From positions 1 through 51,488 of the forward strand of contig DASXMJ010000074.1 of assembly GCA_036495685.1 (NCBI GenBank): 51,488 nt of DNA, read 5' to 3'. Shown here piece by piece: positions 13,404 to 23,990 of this stretch; positions within the stretch are counted from its first letter, which is position 1; each line of letters starts with the position of its first letter. The DNA comes from Candidatus Binataceae bacterium. GTDB lineage: Bacteria > Desulfobacterota > Binatia > Binatales > Binataceae. The notes beneath the pieces were generated by a model. The model was not told the origin of the DNA, did not search any database, and saw only the letters and a list, made by a program, of their open reading frames with translations. Both the position numbers and the translations under genes were made by a program.

Positions 13404-14183
13404 ATGGGTCGGCTCGACGGCAAGATTGCCTTGATCGTCGGCGGGGGCGCCGACGGACCCCCCAACACGGGTGAGACACTCGCCATCGGCAACGGGCGCG
13501 CGACCGCAATTATGTGCGCACGCGAAGGCGCAGCAGTGATGGTGTCCGATCTTAAGCTGGCGCTGGCGGAGGAAACCGCCGCCGCCATCCGGTCCGAAGG
13601 CGGCCGCGCCAAAGCAGTGACGTGCGATGCGAGCAAGGAGGAGGACTGTCGCGGGGCGGTCGAAGCGACGGTGCGCGAATTCGGCGGTCTGCAGCTGCTG
13701 GTGAACAACGTCGGAATCGGAATCGGTGGCAATTTGCTCAAAACCACGACCGAGCAATTTGACCGGATGGTTGCGGTGAATCTGAGGAGCCATTTCCTTA
13801 CGATGCGATACGCGGTACCGGAAATCGCGAAAGCAGGCGGCGGAGCGATTGTAAACGTCTCGTCGATGGCAGCACTAAGGAGCAATCGGCTGATTCCATA
13901 CGAGGCCACCAAGGCTGCGCTGCTGGGATTGTCACGCTCCGCTGCGGCGTCCCACGCGCGAGACAAAATCCGTGTTAACACGATTCTGCCCGGACTGATC
14001 AATTCCACCATGGTGCGGCGCGAAATCGGTGATCGCGAAGCGGCGGTCGCACCACGCATCCCGCTGCGGAGGCAGGGGACTCCCTGGGAGATCGCCAAAG
14101 CGATCGTGTTTCTGCTCTCCGACGACGCTTCCTATATCACTGGGACGGAACTGATCGTGGATGGCGGGCTGTCGATGGGGTGA
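13404..14183 (+). CDS. SDR-family oxidoreductase
   Basis: A 259-residue classical short-chain dehydrogenase/reductase. The catalytic set is Ser153, Tyr166 and Lys170 (VSSMAAL ... YEATK), with the NNVG motif of the adenine pocket stabiliser and the C-terminal ITGTELIVDGG. The nucleotide loop is unusual: instead of a compact TGxxxGxG it reads VGGGADGPPNTGETLAIGNGRA, about nine residues longer, suggesting an altered cofactor pocket while keeping GxG-like glycines. An AAAGGAG lies 7 bases before the ATG. The flavin monooxygenase follows 177 bases downstream on the same strand. Substrate is unknown. Confidence 0.88.
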   Translation: MGRLDGKIALIVGGGADGPPNTGETLAIGNGRATAIMCAREGAAVMVSDLKLALAEETAAAIRSEGGRAKAVTCDASKEEDCRGAVEATVREFGGLQLLVNNVGIGIGGNLLKTTTEQFDRMVAVNLRSHFLTMRYAVPEIAKAGGGAIVNVSSMAALRSNRLIPYEATKAALLGLSRSAAASHARDKIRVNTILPGLINSTMVRREIGDREAAVAPRIPLRRQGTPWEIAKAIVFLLSDDASYITGTELIVDGGLSMG

Positions 14184-14360: not shown

Positions 14361-15371
14361 ATGCGCAAAGTAAGATTCGGTTATCAGCTTGACTTCCGGA
14401 ATCCGCCTAGATCCGAGCGCAGTTTTGCCACGCTGTATGGTGATTCATTGGAGCAGGTGGAATTGGCCGAGGCCCTCGGCTTCGACTCCATTTGGCTAAC
14501 CGAGCATCACTTCACCGACGATGGTTATCTTCCCGCGATGCTCCCGGCTGCGGCTGCGATCGCGGCGCGCACCAAGCGCGTTACCATCGGGACCTTCGTG
14601 CTGCTTGCGCCATTTCAGCATCCACTCAAACTCGCTGAAGACGCGGCGGTGGTGGACGTTATTTCGAACGGCCGTTTGCGGCTGGGGTTGGGGCAGGGCT
14701 ACCGACAGGAAGAGTTCGATGGGTTCGGTGTACCCCGCGCGGAGCGGCTGGGACGTACCCTGGAGACCATCGAAATTCTAAAGCTGGCGTGGACCGGCCA
14801 GCGCTTCAGCTTCGACGGCAAATATTTTCACTTCAAAGACGTGCGGGTGCTGCCCACCCCGGCAAGCCATCCCTATCCGGAATTGCTGTGGGGGGCGGGA
14901 GCGCCGAAAGCGATTCGGCGTGCGGCGAAGATGGGATTGTCGTTTGCATGTGTCGGCGGACGCAAGGAAATGGGAATCTATACCGAGGCGCTCAAGGAGG
15001 CCGGGCGCAATCCGGCGGACTTCAGCCTGGTTAACAGCCGGGTCGTCTACATCGCTGCCACGGCGCAACAGGCCTGGAAGGAGGTCGGCGATGCGCTTAT
15101 GTATCAAGCCCAGCACTATGGCAAGTGGCTCAGCGCGGCGGCCGGCACGAGCGACATGAGCCAGGTGCTGATCCGGCCCGATCCGGAGCGGTTGAAGCGC
15201 ACCAGCATTCTGGGTCCGCCCGAGGAAGTCCGTGCGCGGATAACGGCGGTGATCGAGTCGGGCCCGATTACCGACTTGATTACGGTGGCGCAGCTACCCG
15301 GTCTGGATCCGGCCAAGGCGCGCCGATCTCTGGAACGCTTCGGCCGCGAGGTGCTGCCCGCATTCAAGTAG
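14361..15371 (+). CDS. LLM-class flavin-dependent oxidoreductase (bacterial luciferase-like)
   Basis: A 336-residue luciferase-like monooxygenase: MRKVRFGYQLDF, DSIWLTEHHFTDDGY, TKRVTIGTFVLLAPFQHPLKLAEDAAVVDVISNGRLRLGLGQGY, and WGAGAPKAIRRAA, in the order of F420- or FMN-dependent LLM enzymes. It differs clearly from the minus-strand member at 414-1454. Neighbours are an SDR upstream and a GST downstream, which would fit oxidation of a small organic compound, but the substrate is not determinable. Shine-Dalgarno is weak (GAGAGGA about 15 bases upstream). Confidence 0.87.
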   Translation: MRKVRFGYQLDFRNPPRSERSFATLYGDSLEQVELAEALGFDSIWLTEHHFTDDGYLPAMLPAAAAIAARTKRVTIGTFVLLAPFQHPLKLAEDAAVVDVISNGRLRLGLGQGYRQEEFDGFGVPRAERLGRTLETIEILKLAWTGQRFSFDGKYFHFKDVRVLPTPASHPYPELLWGAGAPKAIRRAAKMGLSFACVGGRKEMGIYTEALKEAGRNPADFSLVNSRVVYIAATAQQAWKEVGDALMYQAQHYGKWLSAAAGTSDMSQVLIRPDPERLKRTSILGPPEEVRARITAVIESGPITDLITVAQLPGLDPAKARRSLERFGREVLPAFK

Positions 15372-15539: not shown

Positions 15540-16310
15540 ATGCGACTGTTCACTTTCGCCACCAGTCCGTACGCGCGCAAAGTCCGCATGGCACTGGACT
15601 TCAAGGGCCTCAGCTACGAGCCTATCGAGCGCTGTTATTCCCTGGACCACAAACAGGACCTGTTCGCCGCCAGCCCGCGCGCGGAAGTTCCCGCCTTGAT
15701 TCTCGACGACGGCCGCACCCTCGCGGACTCCACGATCATCTGCGAATACCTGGAAGATGCGTTTCCCAGCCCGCCTCTGCGACCGTCCGATCCGTATCAA
15801 CGGGCGCGGATGCGCCAGGTCGAAGATTTGTGCGATCGCGTGTGTGACGCGGTCACCTATGGCTACTGGATAGCGGAGGCGCGAAAATCCGCACCGGAAG
15901 CGGCAGCGATGAGCCAGGCGTCGCGCGCGGAATTCGCCGAGCTGCTGCAAAAGCTTGAAGGCGAACTTGGCCAGGGCGACTTCTTCTGCGGCTCACCCAG
16001 CATCGCGGATTTGGCGGCCATCTGCCACGTGCCGGCGGCGCGGGCGATGGGCATTGACCTTGGCGGGATGCCGCGGCTGAAAGCCTGGATCGCCAGGATG
16101 ACGGCGATTCCCGCGGTGCAGGGCGATCGTCAGCGGCTAGTGCGGGCTCTTGCCAAGGTTCATGATATCAGCAGCGAGCTGGTGGGCCCCGACGGGCGAA
16201 TTCACTGGCGCGACAGCCGCCTTGAGTGGCCGGTGCGACGCGGGTTTATCGATTTCGTGGCGCGCGAATTTCACGCGGGCAAGATGATGTTCCCGCCCCA
16301 GGCCACCTAG
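15540..16310 (+). CDS. Glutathione S-transferase family protein
   Basis: 256 residues with a thioredoxin-fold N-domain (MRLFTFATSPYARKVRMALDFKGLSYE) including Ser-Pro-Tyr and the cis-Pro region EVPALILDDG followed by ADSTIICEYLEDAF, which binds the gamma-glutamyl part of glutathione. The helical C-domain follows (FFCGSPSIADLAAICH). It would conjugate or reduce substrates with glutathione. The ATG at 15540 is preceded by GAGGAGGAG. It lies only 23 bases upstream of the selenoprotein gene, and a MAPEG gene follows, so the three probably form one transcription unit dealing with thiol redox or electrophiles. The last ~50 residues (HWRDSRLEWPVRRGFIDF) extend past the usual GST fold. Confidence 0.88.
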   Translation: MRLFTFATSPYARKVRMALDFKGLSYEPIERCYSLDHKQDLFAASPRAEVPALILDDGRTLADSTIICEYLEDAFPSPPLRPSDPYQRARMRQVEDLCDRVCDAVTYGYWIAEARKSAPEAAAMSQASRAEFAELLQKLEGELGQGDFFCGSPSIADLAAICHVPAARAMGIDLGGMPRLKAWIARMTAIPAVQGDRQRLVRALAKVHDISSELVGPDGRIHWRDSRLEWPVRRGFIDFVAREFHAGKMMFPPQAT

Positions 16311-16333
16311 GCTCGCGACTGGAGGTTACCAGC

Positions 16334-17182
16334 ATGCCAGTGTCCTACATTCCGCGGACTCGGGAGCTGTATGCCGAGTTCAACAATCCGTATCGTTGGG
16401 TGACCAATGAGTCCGTGCCCTGGACGCCGCTCACCAAGCCGATCGCGCTGTGCAAGGTGGCACTCATGAGCTCCGGCGGCGTCATGTACCGTGATCAACC
16501 GCGGTTCCATCACGAGGATGCGTCCTACCGACGCATTCCCAAGAGCGCGACCCGCGAGGATTTGAACGTCTGGCACTTCGGATATCCAACCAAGGATGCG
16601 CAACTCGATCCCAACTGCGTGTTTCCGTGGGAACGGCTGAAGCAGCTCGAGCGCGAGAAAGTGATCGGTGAATTGCACGATCCATGCTTTAGCTTCATGG
16701 GCGGCATCTACTCCGCGCGCAAAGTGCGCACCGAACTCGCTCCGAAAATCGCGGCTGAACTCAAAGGCGCCAAAGTTGATGCTTTCTACCTGGTGCCCGC
16801 CTGACCCGTGTGCCATCAGTCCGTCGGACTGATAGCGCGCGCAGTCGAGGAGGCCGGAATCCCGACTTTGTGTATGACTTCGGCGATCGACATAACCAAG
16901 GCCGTCAAGCCGCCACGCGCGGTGTTTGTCAATTTTCCGCTGGGCCACCAGACGGGCAAACCCAATCAGCCCGAGTTGCAAAAACGTATCGTCGTGGATG
17001 CGATGCACGAATTTGAGGCCATTGCACAGCCGGGAACAATCGTCGAGTTACCCTACATCTGGGACGCCAACGATCGCAGCTGGGAAGAACGAGACTACAC
17101 GAAGGGCTGGATGCCGGAGAGGCCTTCGAAGGGAGCTGCAGACAGAGAGGAAGCGGAAAGGCGCGCGCGTTACTCGAGCTGA
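16334..17182 (+). CDS. Selenoprotein, GrdB-like (glycine/sarcosine/betaine/proline reductase selenoprotein B family), UGA decoded as selenocysteine
   Basis: Two adjacent ORFs (to 16804 and from 16808) are in the same frame, separated only by a TGA at 16802-16804. Read through, they give one 282-residue protein with Sec157 in the redox motif U-P-V-C (Sec157-x2-Cys160), within FYLVPA-U-PVCHQSVGLIARAVEEAGIPT. The sequence on both sides is continuous with the GrdB-like selenoprotein B family, whose members carry Sec at this place. A hairpin meeting the bacterial SECIS rules begins 8 bases after the UGA. The ATG at 16334 is preceded by GGAGG. Known members of the wider family handle amines with thiol reductants; for this short stand-alone type the reaction is unknown, but Sec-x-x-Cys points to a thiol/selenol redox step. 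The upstream GST and downstream MAPEG and Tpx suggest thiol-linked detoxification. Sel machinery (selA, selB, selC, selD) is not in the window. Confidence 0.9.
16812..16836 (+). promoter_or_regulatory. Bacterial SECIS element (selenocysteine insertion hairpin)
   Basis: Perfect 8-bp stem ATCAGTCC (16815-16822) with GGACTGAT (16826-16833), 3-base loop GTC, extended by GC/GC pairs at 16812-16813 and 16835-16836 around one C-A mismatch. The loop G is 19 bases from the last base of the UGA, inside the 16-37 base window known for SelB-binding bacterial SECIS elements, and the loop contains the required GU. Confidence 0.85.
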
Positions 17183-17232: not shown

Positions 17233-17625
17233 ATGAATGGCGTGGCGGCAATTGTCGGCCTGGCAGTACTGGAATACATGATTTTCGGGGTCCTGGTGGG
17301 AAGAGCGCGCGGTACCTACCACGTACCGGCACCGGCAACGACCGGAGACCCAACCTTCGAGCGCTACTTTCGGGTACATCAGAACTCGATGGAAGCACTG
17401 GTAGTGTTCATTCCGTCGCTGTTGCTGTTTGCATACTATGTGAGCGTATCGCTGGCGATCGCGGTAGGGTTAATTTTTCTGGTCGGTCGGATCATCTACG
17501 GGACCGGCTACATCACTGCGCCCGAGAAGCGCGGCCCCGGGGCGATGATCACCTTTAGCGTGAATGCCGTTCTCGTGCTCGGTGCGATTATTGGACCGAT
17601 CGTTCATCACTTCCGGGTCCACTAG
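17233..17625 (+). CDS. MAPEG-family membrane protein
   Basis: A 130-residue protein with four hydrophobic segments and the MAPEG signature ERYFRVHQNSMEALVVFIPSL (Arg...Asn...Glu), the part that contacts glutathione in microsomal GSTs, LTC4 synthase and bacterial relatives. It is probably an inner-membrane glutathione-dependent transferase or peroxidase. Start ATG follows AGAGGAGCGAACT. It lies 50 bases after the selenoprotein gene on the same strand and probably shares its transcript, giving a soluble GST, a selenoprotein and a membrane GST-like protein together. Confidence 0.87.
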   Translation: MNGVAAIVGLAVLEYMIFGVLVGRARGTYHVPAPATTGDPTFERYFRVHQNSMEALVVFIPSLLLFAYYVSVSLAIAVGLIFLVGRIIYGTGYITAPEKRGPGAMITFSVNAVLVLGAIIGPIVHHFRVH

Positions 17626-17835: not shown

Positions 17836-18360
17836 ATGGCGGAAGAACGCAAAGGCGTCGTTACGATGAGGGGTAACCCCATGACGCTGGTCGGTCCTGA
17901 ACTCAAGCCCGGCCAGAAGGCTCCGGGCTTCACCATAGTCGGTAAGGGACTGCAACCGGCGGGGCTCGACCAGTTCAAAGGCAAGGTCAAAGTCATCACC
18001 ACGGTTCCCTCGCTCGACACGCCGGTCTGCGATGCGGAGACGCGGCGCTTCAACGAAGAGGCATCCAAGCTTCCCGGCGACGTGCAGATTTTGAGCATCT
18101 CGATGGATCTTCCGTTTGCACAGGCGCGCTGGTGCGGAGCGGCCGGGGTAGACAAGGTGACGACACTGAGCGACTACCGGGGTGCGGAATTCGGCCAGAA
18201 ATATGGGGCCTTGATCAAGGAGCTTCATCTGCTGGCGCGCGCGGTGTTCGTGGTCGATAAGAACGACAACGTCACCTACGTCGAATACGTCAAGGAAGTC
18301 GCGGAGCATCCAAACTACGAAGCCGCGCTCAGCGCCGCTCGCAAGGCTGCCGCCGCATGA
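17836..18360 (+). CDS. tpx: Thiol peroxidase (Tpx)
   Basis: 174 residues matching atypical 2-Cys peroxiredoxin Tpx: TVPSLDTPVCDAETRRFNEEA contains the peroxidatic Cys in the (T/S)LDTPVC motif, and ARWCGAAGVDKV contains the resolving Cys about 35 residues later. It reduces H2O2 and alkyl peroxides using thioredoxin. Length is usual (about 165-175). AAGGAG lies 9 bases before the ATG. It stands after the MAPEG gene with its own apparent promoter, extending the thiol-redox cluster. Confidence 0.93.
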   Translation: MAEERKGVVTMRGNPMTLVGPELKPGQKAPGFTIVGKGLQPAGLDQFKGKVKVITTVPSLDTPVCDAETRRFNEEASKLPGDVQILSISMDLPFAQARWCGAAGVDKVTTLSDYRGAEFGQKYGALIKELHLLARAVFVVDKNDNVTYVEYVKEVAEHPNYEAALSAARKAAAA

Positions 18361-18432: not shown

Positions 18433-19206
18433 TTGCAGGAGAATGAAAATTCGCCGCGGTCTTTCGCGCATGGGCTTCCTTTCGCGGTGGGACTGAAGCG
18501 CGGCCTCTACGAGGCAATTTTTCGCCGGCGCGACATGCGCGAGTTTTTGCCCGATCCGATTCCTGACGAGGTCCTGGCGCGAGTGCTGATCGCGGCGCAC
18601 CATGCGGCCAGTGTTGGATTCACGCAGCCGTGGGACTTCGTCGTGATCCGTGATCTGGAGCGGCGCCGACGCGTGCATGCAATCTTTGACGAGGAGCGAA
18701 TCAAGAACGCCGATCAGTTCGTCGACGAACGCCGCGCGAATTTTCTGTCGCTCAAGCTCGAGGGAATCCTCGAGTCGCCCCTCAACGTGCTGGTGACCTG
18801 TACTCCGGGCCGTTCGGGTCCCGGGATACTCGGCAAGACCAGCATTCGCGACGTCGAGATTTATTCGTCGTGCCTGGCGGTGGAAAATTTCTGGCTGGCA
18901 GCGCGAGCCGAGGGATTGGGCGTGGGATGGGTGAGCATTCTCCGCAATGAGGCGCTGGTGGAGATTTTTTCGATTCCCGCTGGAACGATTCCTCTCGCAT
19001 ACCTCTGCGTGGGCTACGTTCGCAACTTTCCCGACCAACCCGTCCTCGCGACAAAAGGCTGGGCGCGCCGGCTACCTCCTCGAACGCTGCTGCACTTCGA
19101 TTCATGGCATGGAGACCATTCGTCCGGCGACGACCTGATCAAGGCGATCCAAAATCCGGACATCTGGCACGAGATCTTTCCCGACGAAGATCCTGGAGAG
19201 CACTGA
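18433..19206 (+). CDS. bluB: 5,6-dimethylbenzimidazole synthase (BluB)
   Basis: 257-residue BluB: RRRDMREFLPDPIPDEVLARVL, AAHHAASVGFTQPWDFVVI, and the flavin-destroying core LAVENFWLAARAEGLGVGWVSI are typical of this nitroreductase-fold enzyme, which fragments FMNH2 with O2 to make DMB, the lower ligand of vitamin B12. Start is a TTG at 18433, with no in-frame ATG until residue 33. Its TGA overlaps the CTG/first codons of the next gene, so bluB heads a tight B12 operon. The reaction needs O2, so the organism lives at least partly under oxygen. Confidence 0.93.
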   Translation: MQENENSPRSFAHGLPFAVGLKRGLYEAIFRRRDMREFLPDPIPDEVLARVLIAAHHAASVGFTQPWDFVVIRDLERRRRVHAIFDEERIKNADQFVDERRANFLSLKLEGILESPLNVLVTCTPGRSGPGILGKTSIRDVEIYSSCLAVENFWLAARAEGLGVGWVSILRNEALVEIFSIPAGTIPLAYLCVGYVRNFPDQPVLATKGWARRLPPRTLLHFDSWHGDHSSGDDLIKAIQNPDIWHEIFPDEDPGEH

Positions 19207-19214
19207 AGCTCGTC

Positions 19215-19886
19215 TTGGACCGCTCGATCCCCTGGCGGTGGGAGGTCCGTGACCGCACCCTGATAGTCCGGTTCGACACTCCGTTCCGCACCCTGGGATG
19301 GGCGCCTATGGGAGGTGGTTTTTCACGAGCCCGCGTCGTCGCCAACCACCAGGTGTCGGCTGACGATAGCGGAGCGACCGAAGCTCCCCTACGGTACCTT
19401 CGCCGCACGATTCGTCATCTTGCGATCGATCCTCGCGGCGTTGTTGCGATGATGACCGGTGCGAACGTCGGCCAGGCCGCATACGCTTTTGCCAGTCGCG
19501 GATCCCTGGTCGCAGGTGCGTGGTGCACGGCGGGGTGCACGAATGCCCTGCGGGTCGGAGACCGCGCGACCTTCGCTTCGGCGGCACCTGGTACGATCAA
19601 TCTAATCGTCGCGCTTAATGAGCCTTTTGATGACAGCGCTCTGACAGAGGCAGTGCAGATAACCACCGAAGCGCGGGTTGTGGCGGTTCAGGGAGCCAAA
19701 GTCGCCAGCACAAGATCCGGCAAGCCTGCTACAGGAACCGGAACCGATTGCCTCGTGGTTGCGACTCCCGTGGGAAAGGATGCTCATCGCTACTGCGGGA
19801 AGCATACGGTGGCCGGCGAATTGATCGGCCGCGCCGTACTGGCGAGCTGTGCAAGAGCCTTGGTGCGCGAGGCGAGGAATCGCTGA
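19215..19886 (+). CDS. cbiZ: Adenosylcobinamide amidohydrolase (CbiZ)
   Basis: 223 residues with CbiZ signatures: GVVAMMTGANVGQAAYA, WCTAGCTNALRVGD, GTINLIV, ITTEARVVAVQGAKVASTRSGKPATGTGTD, and YCGKHTVAGELIGRAV. CbiZ removes the aminopropanol from adenosylcobinamide to give adenosylcobyric acid, used in archaea and some bacteria to salvage and remodel cobamides. The start is uncertain: TTG at 19215 is chosen, just after the bluB stop at 19206; a CTG at 19203 overlaps the bluB TGA. No ATG is near. CbiZ in a cluster with CbiB and CobD suggests the cell rebuilds imported cobinamide or foreign cobamides into DMB-cobalamin. Confidence 0.9.
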   Translation: MDRSIPWRWEVRDRTLIVRFDTPFRTLGWAPMGGGFSRARVVANHQVSADDSGATEAPLRYLRRTIRHLAIDPRGVVAMMTGANVGQAAYAFASRGSLVAGAWCTAGCTNALRVGDRATFASAAPGTINLIVALNEPFDDSALTEAVQITTEARVVAVQGAKVASTRSGKPATGTGTDCLVVATPVGKDAHRYCGKHTVAGELIGRAVLASCARALVREARNR

Positions 19887-20030
19887 TGGTGCGGAAGAAT
19901 CCGCCGGATGCTCGGCCCCGACCTGGCCCCGGATTCGTTTCTGGGCTGGTGGAGCCAGCCGCGGCAATGACGCCATGGGGCGGTTTGCCGAGTCACCGGA
20001 CCGCTGGACTCGGGCTCGTCGGTTAGCGCG

Positions 20031-20993
20031 ATGACGCACGCGCTTCATCTCTCCACGACGTTGATCGCCTTGGCAATGCTGCTCGATGTGACTTTGGGTG
20101 ATCCGCGCTGGTTGCCGCATCCAGCGCGGATTATGGGGGCCGCCATCTCCTGGGGCGAGGACACTCTCCATACCGGCGATGGGCAACAGGACCTCCGACG
20201 AGGGGCGGTCTTGGCCACCGTGGTGGTAGTGCTCTCGGCGGGAGTGACGTGGGCAATCATCGAAATATGTGATCGCGTCGATCCAACCTTGGGCGCGCTT
20301 GCCGCGCTCGCGATTGCGTGGACCACGCTGGCTGCACGCGGGCTCGATTCAGCCGCGCGGGAAGTTCAAGATGCATTGTTGCGCGGCGATGAACCCGCTG
20401 CGCGTCGCGCGATGCCCGCGCTGGTGGGCCGTGATCCCGGATCGCTTGACCGTGACGCGATGATTAGAGCGACGGTAGAGTCGGTTGCGGAAAACGCGAG
20501 CGACGGAGTCATTGCCCCGCTGCTATTCCTGTTCCTTGGGGGGCCGGTGGGAGCGATCGCCTACAAGGCCATCAATACGCTGGATTCGATGATTGCCCAT
20601 CGCGATGAACGCTACACTTACTTCGGGCGGTTTGCCGCGCGCCTCGACGACGCCGCGAACTGGGTTCCCGCGCGAGTCACCGCGCTGTGCATCATAGGGG
20701 CGTCGGAGGCCTGGTCGCGTCGAGGTAGCGATGCCTACTCGGTGTGGCGGCGCGATGCAGGCAAACATGAAAGCCCCAACGCGGGTCATCCTGAAGCTGC
20801 GATGGCAGGCGCGCTCGGAATTCAACTCGGCGGTGCCGCTGTGTATGAAGGTAAAAAGATAGAGCGTGCGTTGCTCGGGGAGGCCGTGGGTCCGGCAAAA
20901 GTAGAAGCCATCGCGAGTGCGCGGACCATCCTCAAGGTCGCGACGCTCATCGCGTTCGTGGGCATCGCGACCATCCGAGCGGCCGTCGTATGA
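20031..20993 (+). CDS. cbiB: Adenosylcobinamide-phosphate synthase (CbiB)
   Basis: 320-residue membrane protein with CbiB motifs: DVTLGDPRWLPHPARIMG, VESVAENASDGVIAPLLF, AYKAINTLDSMIAHRDERYTYFGRFAARLDDAANWVPAR, and PNAGHPEAAMAGAL. It joins adenosylcobyric acid and (R)-1-aminopropanol phosphate. About five hydrophobic segments are visible. About 140 bases separate it from cbiZ; the last four bases (ATGA) are shared with cobD. Nomenclature: this is cbiB of Salmonella (called cobD in the Pseudomonas scheme). Confidence 0.95.
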   Translation: MTHALHLSTTLIALAMLLDVTLGDPRWLPHPARIMGAAISWGEDTLHTGDGQQDLRRGAVLATVVVVLSAGVTWAIIEICDRVDPTLGALAALAIAWTTLAARGLDSAAREVQDALLRGDEPAARRAMPALVGRDPGSLDRDAMIRATVESVAENASDGVIAPLLFLFLGGPVGAIAYKAINTLDSMIAHRDERYTYFGRFAARLDDAANWVPARVTALCIIGASEAWSRRGSDAYSVWRRDAGKHESPNAGHPEAAMAGALGIQLGGAAVYEGKKIERALLGEAVGPAKVEAIASARTILKVATLIAFVGIATIRAAVV

Positions 20994-22054
20994 CGAATCC
21001 GGTCCCCATAGATCGAACCCATGGCGGAGACCAGCCACCTGGCATCATCGATTGTAGTGTGAGCATCAACCCGCTTGGCCCACCCCCCGGCGCGGTCCAC
21101 GCGTACTCCACGGCACTGACTCGCATCACCTCATATCCTCCACCCAAGAGCGCCGCGCTGGAGAAACGACTGGCGACCTGGTTCGGCGTCGACCCGCGCA
21201 ACGTGCTGGCCGCCAATGGAACGACCCAATTGATCTACCTGCTGGCGCGGGTGCTGGAACCGGCGCGACCGTTCGTCGTGGTTCCGACTTTTAGCGAGAT
21301 CGCCAATGCCTTGGCGGGCGAGGGACTGCCGCCGGAGCCGATCTTTCTAGCCCCCGAACACCGGTACCAGCTCGACTTGCGCCAGATCGATGAGGCGCTG
21401 GCCGGTCACGCCGGTGCGATTTTTCTTGGCCGCCCCAATAGTCCGACCGGTACGATGGTGACGATGCTGGAGATTGGCGAGATCGCCGCGCGATGCGAGA
21501 GGCGCGGATGCTGGTGCGTGCTTGATGAGGCATTCATCGATTTCGTGGATCCTCCGGATTCTGCGGTGCAGATGGCCACCCAAAATCCGCGTGTGATCGT
21601 ACTGCGGTCGCTCACCAAGTCGTTTGCGATACCCGGCCTGCGCCTCGGCTGCGTGGTTGCGGCGGATGAAGTGGTCGACGCACTCCGCGACGCGATCGAA
21701 CCCTGGTCGGTGAATGTGGTCGCCGAGAGCGTCGGTCTTGCGTGTCTTGAACACTCCGACGAATACCTGGCGCGAACGCGCGCACTGATCGCGACAGAGC
21801 GTGCTTACTTGGCGGAGGCTTTGGCCGGCGCGGCCGGGGTGAGTGTGTTTCCCTCCGTGGCAAACTTTCTGATGCTCGAAGTCGAAGCTGAGATTACGCC
21901 GGGGAAGTTCGGCGCGCACATGTTGAGCCACGGCATCGCGGTTCGCGACCTGCGCACGATGCCAGGATGCAAGGTGGGCCTCTACCGAGTTGGAGTCCGG
22001 AATCGCGAGGACAATGAACGACTGGTGAATGAAGCAGGAAAGTGGAGGAAATAG
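20990..22054 (+). CDS. cobD: Threonine-phosphate decarboxylase (CobD, PLP-dependent)
   Basis: 354-residue class I PLP aminotransferase-fold enzyme that turns L-threonine phosphate into aminopropanol phosphate, the substrate of CbiB. Visible: CSVSINPLGPP near the N-terminus, ANGTTQLIYLLARVL, GRPNSPTGT, CVLDEAFIDF (PLP-contacting Asp), the PLP-Lys motif RSLTKSFAIPGLRLG, and a C-terminal VGVRNREDNERL. Length fits the family. It overlaps cbiB by ATGA, indicating translational coupling and the expected functional link. It resembles HisC, but the context settles the call. Confidence 0.9.
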   Translation: MTNPVPIDRTHGGDQPPGIIDCSVSINPLGPPPGAVHAYSTALTRITSYPPPKSAALEKRLATWFGVDPRNVLAANGTTQLIYLLARVLEPARPFVVVPTFSEIANALAGEGLPPEPIFLAPEHRYQLDLRQIDEALAGHAGAIFLGRPNSPTGTMVTMLEIGEIAARCERRGCWCVLDEAFIDFVDPPDSAVQMATQNPRVIVLRSLTKSFAIPGLRLGCVVAADEVVDALRDAIEPWSVNVVAESVGLACLEHSDEYLARTRALIATERAYLAEALAGAAGVSVFPSVANFLMLEVEAEITPGKFGAHMLSHGIAVRDLRTMPGCKVGLYRVGVRNREDNERLVNEAGKWRK

Positions 22055-22134
22055 GCGTTAGCCGACCAGAGCACCGGTCGGGAGTCGCGTCGAGAGATCC
22101 TTGGAGTGCGTAGGGCTTCCGAATTTTCCCGTCG

Positions 22135-23199
22135 ATGGAGTTGTTAGAAGAAACGCTCGGCTCGATTCGGCCGCTCGACTCCGACGCCGAGCGCGCAGCT
22201 GCTGCTCGTCTGGACTCGCTGACCAAGCCGCCCGGCAGTCTCGGATACTTGGAGAAGGCGATCCGCCGTTACGCCGCGATTCGCGGTGACGGTAGTGCGC
22301 ACATCGGGCGGGCCGCAATCGCGGTGTTCGTAGCCGATCATGGAGTCGCCGACGAAGGCGTCAGCGCATTTCCGCAGGCCGTAACGGTCGAGATGCTGCG
22401 CAACCTCGCCAGCGGAGGAGCCGCGATCAGCGTGCTCACGCGTCGGCTGGGCTACGATCTTCGAGTTATCGATGTAGGAGTGAAAACCGATACCAGCTCG
22501 GTACCGATTGGCGACGTTACATACCGGCGAATCGGCGCCGGCACGGCGAATTTTGTACGCGGTCTCGCAATGAGTCGGGAGCAAGTCAAGCGCGCTCTCC
22601 AAGTCGGAATTGAGGTTGCCCGCGAACTGGCCCAGGGTGGGGTGACGCTGATCGGAATCGGCGAAATGGGAATCGCCAACAGTACGGCGGCGGCCGCGGT
22701 ATTGAGCGCAATCACCGAAATCGCACCGAGCGGGCTGGCGGGGCGGGGGACCGGCCTGGATGAGGCAGGAGTGCGGCGCAAGGTCGCAATCATCGAGCAG
22801 GCACTCAAGCTCCATAGCGGCTCGCTCCAGACCGGAGAGTCCATTCTGGGCGCAGTCGGCGGTTTCGAGATCGCCGCGATGGCGGGGACGTGTCTTGCGG
22901 GTGCGGCACTGCGCGTCCCGGTGATCGTCGACGGATTCATCGCGACCGCGGCAGCAGCCGCGGCCGAGAAAATTCGTCCGGGCCTGTTCGAATATCTGTT
23001 TTTCAGTCATCGCTCGGCCGAAGGCGGTCACGCTCTGGCGCTCGAGCGGCTGGGAGTGCGTCCGATCCTCGATCTCGACATGCGTCTCGGCGAGGGAACC
23101 GGCGCCGCGCTCGCGATGAATGTTTTGGAGGCCGCGCTGGATTTATTTCACTCGATGGCCACCTTTTCATCGGCCGGAGTGTCGGGCAAGGTCCGATGA
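22135..23199 (+). CDS. cobT: Nicotinate-nucleotide--dimethylbenzimidazole phosphoribosyltransferase (CobT)
   Basis: 354-residue CobT: LTKPPGSLGYLE, FVADHGVADEGVSAFPQ, GIGEMGIANSTAAAAV, GLAGRGTGLDE and DMRLGEGTGAALAM, the last holding the catalytic Glu of GEGTGA. It makes alpha-ribazole phosphate from DMB and nicotinate mononucleotide, using the product of BluB. It starts 80 bases after cobD and overlaps cobS by ATGA. The Salmonella family is ~350 residues, so length is normal. Confidence 0.95.
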   Translation: MELLEETLGSIRPLDSDAERAAAARLDSLTKPPGSLGYLEKAIRRYAAIRGDGSAHIGRAAIAVFVADHGVADEGVSAFPQAVTVEMLRNLASGGAAISVLTRRLGYDLRVIDVGVKTDTSSVPIGDVTYRRIGAGTANFVRGLAMSREQVKRALQVGIEVARELAQGGVTLIGIGEMGIANSTAAAAVLSAITEIAPSGLAGRGTGLDEAGVRRKVAIIEQALKLHSGSLQTGESILGAVGGFEIAAMAGTCLAGAALRVPVIVDGFIATAAAAAAEKIRPGLFEYLFFSHRSAEGGHALALERLGVRPILDLDMRLGEGTGAALAMNVLEAALDLFHSMATFSSAGVSGKVR

Positions 23200-23990
23200 G
23201 CCCGCCCGATCAGGACAAGGGCCCGCTCGCGACGCTGCCTAACTTGTGGGAAGGAATCCTGTCCCAGCTGCGCCTTGCGGCGAGCTTCCTGACCATCTTT
23301 CCGCTCGGACCGGGCCTCGCCGACAACGCGATCGTCGCGGCGTCGTTTCGATGGTTCCCGCTAATCGGGTTCGCGATCGGCGCGACACTCGCCGTGGAAG
23401 ACAGTCTGCTCCGGATGCTATTCCCGGCGATGCTGCGTTCCGCGGTGGTGATTCTGTCGCTGGTAATCCTGACCGGCGCCGTGCATCTCGATGCGCTCGC
23501 TGACACCGCGGACGCCCTCGGAGCAGGACGCAATCGCCAACGCGCGCTCGAAATTCTTCGCGACAGCCGAATTGGCACGTTCGGCGCGGCGGCGGTCTTC
23601 CTTTCGTTGGCGCTGAAGATTTTCGCGCTGGGAACGTTGCCCGAGTCGCACCGCTTGGTGGCCCTGTTCGTCGCGCCGGGTCTTTCGCGCTGGTCAATGG
23701 TGGCGGTGGCGGCGGGTCTTGAGTATTTGCGTTCCGAAGGCGGCGCAGGCGCTACGCTGCTGCAGCGCGATTCGAGCAGCCTCTTCGTCGCGAGCACGGT
23801 CGCTGCGACGCTATTGTTAATTACGCTTTCGCTAAAAGCGATGGTCGCGGCCGGAGTGGCAATTGTGCTGGTGTTGGGGGCGCGATGGTTCTATCAGAGG
23901 TGGCTCGGCGGCGTGACTGGTGACCTGATAGGAGCGTGCGGAGAAGTGGTGGAGATCGCAGTGCTGCTGGTGTTTGCGGCGCTGCTTTAG
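23196..23990 (+). CDS. cobS: Adenosylcobinamide-GDP ribazoletransferase (CobS)
   Basis: 264-residue polytopic membrane protein with the CobS motif HLDALADTADAL and ILRDSRIGTFGAAAV; the acidic patch binds Mg for transfer of alpha-ribazole to the activated corrinoid, the last step of cobalamin assembly. The ATG at 23196 overlaps the cobT stop (ATGA). An upstream reading frame extends the ORF, but the coupled start fits family length (~250-260). With bluB, cbiZ, cbiB, cobD and cobT it gives a complete lower-half pathway except the kinase/guanylyltransferase CobU/CobP, which is not in the window. Confidence 0.93.
   Translation: MSPPDQDKGPLATLPNLWEGILSQLRLAASFLTIFPLGPGLADNAIVAASFRWFPLIGFAIGATLAVEDSLLRMLFPAMLRSAVVILSLVILTGAVHLDALADTADALGAGRNRQRALEILRDSRIGTFGAAAVFLSLALKIFALGTLPESHRLVALFVAPGLSRWSMVAVAAGLEYLRSEGGAGATLLQRDSSSLFVASTVAATLLLITLSLKAMVAAGVAIVLVLGARWFYQRWLGGVTGDLIGACGEVVEIAVLLVFAALL

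Follow-up and report, generated by a model that had tools for sequence, protein, structure and literature searches.

A predicted stand-alone selenoprotein of the PrdB/GrdB type among glutathione- and peroxide-related genes of a Binatota genome

The gene studied here lies in a window (the whole stretch of DNA analysed, 51,488 nucleotides) from a genome of the uncultured phylum Binatota, where it is flanked by oxidoreductase and glutathione-related genes and followed by a cobalamin block. The features below are all on the + strand, and their counts refer to 21 orthologous loci that all come from one Binatota family, so that conservation of neighbours may partly reflect close kinship.

13404..14183, + strand: SDR oxidoreductase, upstream, a conserved neighbour
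14361..15371, + strand: luciferase-like (LLM) oxidoreductase, upstream, conserved in some relatives
15540..16310, + strand: glutathione S-transferase (GST) family gene, directly upstream (upstream in 12 of 21 loci)
16321..16325, + strand: GGAGG ribosome-binding site, 8 bases 5′ of the ATG, read from the sequence
16334..17182, + strand: predicted selenoprotein gene of a stand-alone PrdB/GrdB-like family, 282 residues including Sec157 (from ORFs, translation and profile matches)
16802..16804, + strand: UGA, predicted selenocysteine codon Sec157 (from conservation, and Cys in homologues L086/L087)
16807..16841, + strand: predicted SECIS hairpin, with an 8-bp apical stem (16815-16822/16826-16833), a GUC loop (16823-16825) and a weaker outer stem
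16811..16813, + strand: codon for Cys160, the Cys in UxxC (clade B relatives have Asp here)
17233..17625, + strand: MAPEG family membrane protein, a glutathione-related family (8 of 21 loci)
17836..18360, + strand: thiol peroxidase (Tpx), downstream in 17 of 21 loci
18433..19206, + strand: BluB, 5,6-dimethylbenzimidazole synthase, start of the cobalamin block

The gene opens with the ATG at 16334 and runs for 282 codons plus a stop, its final TGA ending at 17182, with another TGA in frame at codon 157. Standard gene calling breaks it there into two ORFs (16226-16804 and 16808-17182), and ORF calling and translation confirm both the extent of the gene and the single in-frame TGA that an earlier, sequence-only reading of this DNA had described. 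Both ORF halves hit the NCBIfam profile for PrdB, TIGR04483, in order, at positions 14-142 and then 151-236, and the joined protein scores higher (165 bits) than the halves (94 and 55). The continuous protein carrying Sec157-x-x-Cys160 that had been proposed is borne out by this ordered match of both halves to one PrdB profile.

Matches to the family occur in 37 of 41 genomes of the order, and practically all of the strong ones contain one in-frame TGA. When the homologues were aligned, as the earlier reading had suggested, they read on past the UGA with Sec at that site or, in two of them (L086 and L087, with motifs NCPICHQ and NCPVCHQ), with Cys. A maximum-likelihood tree, built quickly from 88 proteins and unsure in its deep branching order because of long branches, places the Sec157 gene in clade A (31 members, support 96, motif UPVCHQS), and the UGA stands at the identical place in all 31. 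Sister clade B has the motif UPLDHQ, with Asp for Cys160 in 17 of 17 members (Sec-P-L-Asp-H-Q, for instance at loci L120, L121, L122 and L124), and clade C has UPVCHQTV, mostly with Ser next, and includes both Cys homologues. Sec, His161, Gln162, Arg169, Glu172 and Arg195 are conserved across clades A-C. The remaining groups in the tree are a UGxCNQ group, the reference PrdBs and the distant true GrdBs (UGTSTRC). One genome of the set also holds two GrdB-like stretches with several in-frame stops (G037:C30:13539-13985 and G037:C101:238-897), which are probably decayed copies.

Directly behind the UGA, the predicted SECIS has an apical stem of eight perfect pairs, AUCAGUCC (16815-16822) against GGACUGAU (16826-16833), closed by the GUC loop at 16823-16825, and an outer stem is also predicted (16807-16813/16835-16841). 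The sequence-only reading was right about the perfect 8-bp stem and the GU in the loop, but it had started the hairpin 8 bases after the UGA, and the apical stem starts 10 bases 3′ of it. Folding the 40 bases from the UGA, another check that had been proposed, gave a strong hairpin of -22.9 kcal/mol with z = -4.7, which none of 200 shuffles equalled. When all 1311 TGAs in the window were scanned on both strands, such a hairpin was found behind the Sec157 TGA only, and the chance expectation in simulated sequences was 0.15. Across the 31 clade A members the apical pairs are kept in 247 of 248 cases and the loop starts with GU in all, with compensatory swaps in the second pair (U-A to C-G) and the sixth (U-A to A-U); such swaps are commoner in clades B and C, and conservation of the outer stem is partial only. 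The codons that form the stem are near-fixed among the 21 nearest orthologues, with a mean major-codon frequency of 0.93 versus 0.67 at other invariant residues (p = 6e-4). The two Cys homologues retain the residues CHQ and have lost the hairpin. Loss of the hairpin in the Cys homologues, frozen stem codons and covariation together match what is predicted for a selected SECIS.

The genome (245 contigs, 96.4% complete) was searched for the selenocysteine machinery, and selA (584.6 bits), selB (328 bits, or 351 with neighbours, against a cut-off of 242), selD (385.6 bits, with an in-frame TGA of its own) and tRNA-Sec (70 bits, with ARAGORN in agreement and anticodon TCA) are all present. Absence of this machinery, which the earlier reading had named as evidence that would count against it, was thus not found. 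The selD gene, at L018:1501-2427 (G000:C29:8622-9548), has its TGA where the catalytic loop is encoded (CKAAG-U-AGKLGP), a hairpin follows this codon, and selB adjoins the gene; because of this TGA, the SelD of the same genome is very likely, as far as the sequence tells, a selenoprotein itself. A tRNA-Sec match of at least 66 bits occurs in 34 of 40 genomes of the order, but this co-occurrence adds little, since tRNA-Sec is missing in only 2 of the 4 order genomes that have no homologue of the gene. At 2851-2904 on the - strand of the window there is a weak match to the tRNA-Sec family (32 bits against a cut-off of 47, with ARAGORN disagreeing), which is probably due to chance.

The splitting of the gene by ordinary calling would fit a genuine stop, or an error in sequencing, at the UGA, with the downstream similarity a remnant. 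This reading is opposed by the recurrence of the TGA in dozens of genomes, the covariation in the SECIS, the full Sec machinery and the conservation past the UGA, and we regard it as extremely improbable; the conservation of the TGA in dozens of genomes led us to reject it. From these comparisons, we conclude that the UGA at codon 157 almost certainly encodes selenocysteine.

By profile score, the protein lies nearest to PrdB, the 26-kDa selenoprotein subunit of D-proline reductase (TIGR04483, 165.3 bits, E 1.5e-48). This score falls short of the equivalog cut-off of 300 bits, which two reference PrdBs pass at 424.7 and 310.2 bits, so by score the protein is not a PrdB. It does belong to the broader GRDB superfamily (PF07355, 51.7 bits versus 22; TIGR01918, 65.8 versus 65.45), but it is not a GrdB, GrdF or GrdH, having 282 residues versus about 430 and scoring 58-62 bits versus specific cut-offs of 602-800. 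The "GrdB-like family" of the sequence-only reading therefore holds for the superfamily and fails for full-length GrdB, the nearest relatives being PrdB-like and corresponding to the C-terminal half of GrdB. In the same way, the protein is indeed shorter than GrdB, as had been remarked, but its length is normal because the nearest family is the PrdB-like branch and not GrdB.

Searches of the 96% complete genome returned no match to PF09338 (the PrdA/GrdE-type pyruvoyl subunit) or to PF04723 (GrdA), and PrdA was not found near the gene, which agrees with the earlier remark that it stands without the other glycine-reductase subunits. As a positive control, the same PF09338 and PF04723 searches recover grd-type operons in four genomes of the order; no PF09338 protein was found in the other 36 of 40, and no PrdA was found beside the UGxCNQ homologues within the roughly 1.5 kb of flank at those loci. 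The four classical operons (L088-L093; G008, G021, G022 and G028) comprise a GrdA with TGA, a GrdE-like gene and a long GrdB with UGTSTRC, and would be unexpected if these bacteria are aerobes; their GrdBs form a clade distant from the Sec157 protein.

These results bear on whether the protein could still be a subunit of an amino-acid reductase, for D-proline or another amino acid, with a pyruvoyl partner whose gene lies elsewhere or has diverged beyond recognition. PrdB is the best-matching family at E 1.5e-48, and the position of UxxC is common to true PrdB together with D92, P98, R169, E172, R195, G204 and G208. The score of 165 is, however, far under the cut-off that the reference PrdBs pass at 425 and 310, PF09338 is missing from this genome and from 36 of 40 in the order, no PrdA-like gene was found beside the gene or its homologues, and true PrdB sits on a separate branch of the tree, all of which makes this reading very unlikely. 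Judged by its profile matches, the protein is a PrdB-type domain, the counterpart of GrdB's C-terminal half, and is not a D-proline or glycine reductase as these are known.

The GST gene lies within about 130 bases upstream in 11 of its 12 loci, and the neighbours found in the 21 loci are not those of the next-nearest relatives, at about 50% identity. In clade C, a sister clade, 7 of 13 loci have a glutaredoxin gene 20-71 bases behind the selenoprotein gene (L128:8301-8573, with equivalents in L129, L130, L134, L135, L137 and L138). An acyl-CoA dehydrogenase gene is also found downstream in L128 and L130, and a SAM-dependent methyltransferase gene lies upstream in 4 members of clade B. Genes for glutathione synthetase and a GCS2-type ligase are present in the genome, which by its gene content is probably able to make glutathione. 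Clades A and C thus stand beside different glutathione or peroxide genes, which suggests a link to glutathione, although the link is circumstantial and falls short of proof because the orthologues are close kin.

Other neighbours admit other readings. Behind Tpx, the window holds a compact block for cobalamin lower-ligand and salvage functions (18433-23990: bluB, cbiZ, cbiB, cobD/cobC, cobT and cobS). On Haematobacter massiliensis plasmid pOT1-1 (L086, 5153-8888), the Cys homologue adjoins a cluster of cob genes and follows, after about 100 bases, a 2.7-kb gene of class III aminotransferase fold. A role in cobalamin lower-ligand or salvage chemistry would account for the bluB-cbiZ-cbiB-cobD-cobT-cobS block downstream in about 12 of 21 loci and for the cob cluster adjoining the Haematobacter homologue. 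Against this, the Tpx gene intervenes between the Sec157 gene and the block, the other clades lack the block in their vicinity, cobO of Haematobacter runs on the opposite strand and the Roseomonas homologue has no cob neighbours, so we consider such a role unlikely.

Sec in GrdB-type proteins is a nucleophile that acts on the activated alpha-carbon of Schiff bases. A reductive dehalogenase or other C-X bond cleaver, with Sec attacking an activated alpha-carbon, would fit this family chemistry, and the GST, SDR and LLM neighbours would suit the breakdown of xenobiotics; a study of fluoroacetate dehalorespiration in Synergistota (PMC10838667) reportedly mentions a GrdB-like protein, which we counted in its favour. 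Constant neighbours for dehalogenation or transport were nevertheless not identified around the gene, and we hold this reading to be unlikely.

An AlphaFold2 model of middling confidence (pLDDT 69, pTM 0.73) places Sec157 at the start of helix 158-173, behind strand 150-154 of a predicted alpha/beta fold, which in the model would be a usual place for a nucleophile. A sequence search for solved structures of relatives found none, Foldseek returned no match under E 0.001, and VIA-align gave Z values of at most 8.2 (LacI-type, FtsZ). Because these Z values are within the range of ordinary alpha/beta layouts, we draw no function from the fold. A possible likeness to the CNT motif of Asp/Glu racemases was not supported.

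The reading we favour, and hold tentatively, is that of a selenol enzyme that acts without a partner and is recharged by glutathione or glutaredoxin. The SECIS hairpin within the coding sequence almost certainly directs SelB and tRNA-Sec to place selenocysteine at the UGA, and the PrdB-type domain would then work without a pyruvoyl-bearing PrdA/GrdE subunit and without GrdA. The Sec157 selenolate may attack an electrophilic small molecule, either a peroxide- or disulfide-type substrate or one with an activated carbon, after which the oxidised or bound selenium would be freed by Cys160 or, in proteins that lack this residue, by an outside thiol. Glutathione, acting through glutaredoxin- or GST-type partners, would restore the selenol. 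Asp for Cys160 in all 17 members of clade B argues against an obligatory internal selenenylsulfide in the family. Because the usual partner is missing and glutathione and peroxide genes adjoin, the reaction of the Sec157 branch is probably different from that of an amino-acid-splitting enzyme. As a whole explanation, decoding by SelB and tRNA-Sec, a PrdB-type domain without its partner and a selenol recharged by thiol appear rather probable; that the partner-less branch of PrdB/GrdB consists of glutathione- or glutaredoxin-coupled selenoenzymes with a reaction unlike amino-acid reduction is a possibility we put forward with some doubt.

The kind of protein is already known, ocean metagenomes having yielded counts of short "PrdB" selenoproteins from 2005 onwards: 42 with UxxC in the Sargasso Sea (PMC1088965), and 235 Sec and 110 Cys forms in the GOS data, where the paper names the short "PrdB" a proline reductase and makes no mention of PrdA (PMC2398784). 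Reviews (PMC9312934, PMC13188914) count PrdB/TIGR04483 among the standard selenoprotein families, and our literature search found no paper on Binatota selenoproteins or on the function of a stand-alone PrdB. Less appreciated are the missing partner of the PrdB-like protein and the redox company of its gene. "PrdB" is among the most abundant selenoproteins of marine surveys, a setting in which D-proline fermentation makes little sense, and a nearly complete genome without the partner, together with the redox context, indicates that the assigned name is probably wrong for the Sec157 branch. If the glutathione- or glutaredoxin-coupled reading is true, ocean surveys have probably misnamed their abundant "proline reductase" selenoproteins, and the Sec-x-x-Asp clade would reset its selenium by an outside thiol only. 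Such a clean partner-less case makes a specific biochemical test possible.

Among known systems, PrdB (TIGR04483) has the same domain over nearly the whole length, UxxC in the same place and a similar size, whereas the Sec157 protein has HQS behind the Cys, is about 20 residues longer at the N-terminus and about 40 at the C-terminus, scores 165 bits versus a cut-off of 300 and comes from a genome without PrdA. With GrdB, GrdF and GrdH (PF07355, TIGR01918), the aligned part is their C-terminal half (positions about 199-429) together with the Sec site, but the Sec157 protein is without some 200 N-terminal residues, without GrdE and GrdA and without UGTSTRC, and falls in a separate clade. The Haematobacter and Roseomonas proteins, which PGAP names "glycine/sarcosine/betaine reductase selenoprotein B family protein", are full-length relatives (residues 2-248, 32-35% identity) that likewise have no Grd partners next door; unlike the Sec157 protein, they have Cys for Sec and no SECIS hairpin, and group in clade C. 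The marine short "PrdB" proteins resemble the Sec157 protein in having Sec in UxxC and an assignment to pfam07355; their surface-ocean habitat was listed as a likeness, and the bearer of Sec157 is a member of the Binatota that is called a soil bacterium. Going by their descriptions, the marine proteins and the Sec157 protein most probably belong to the same broad group.
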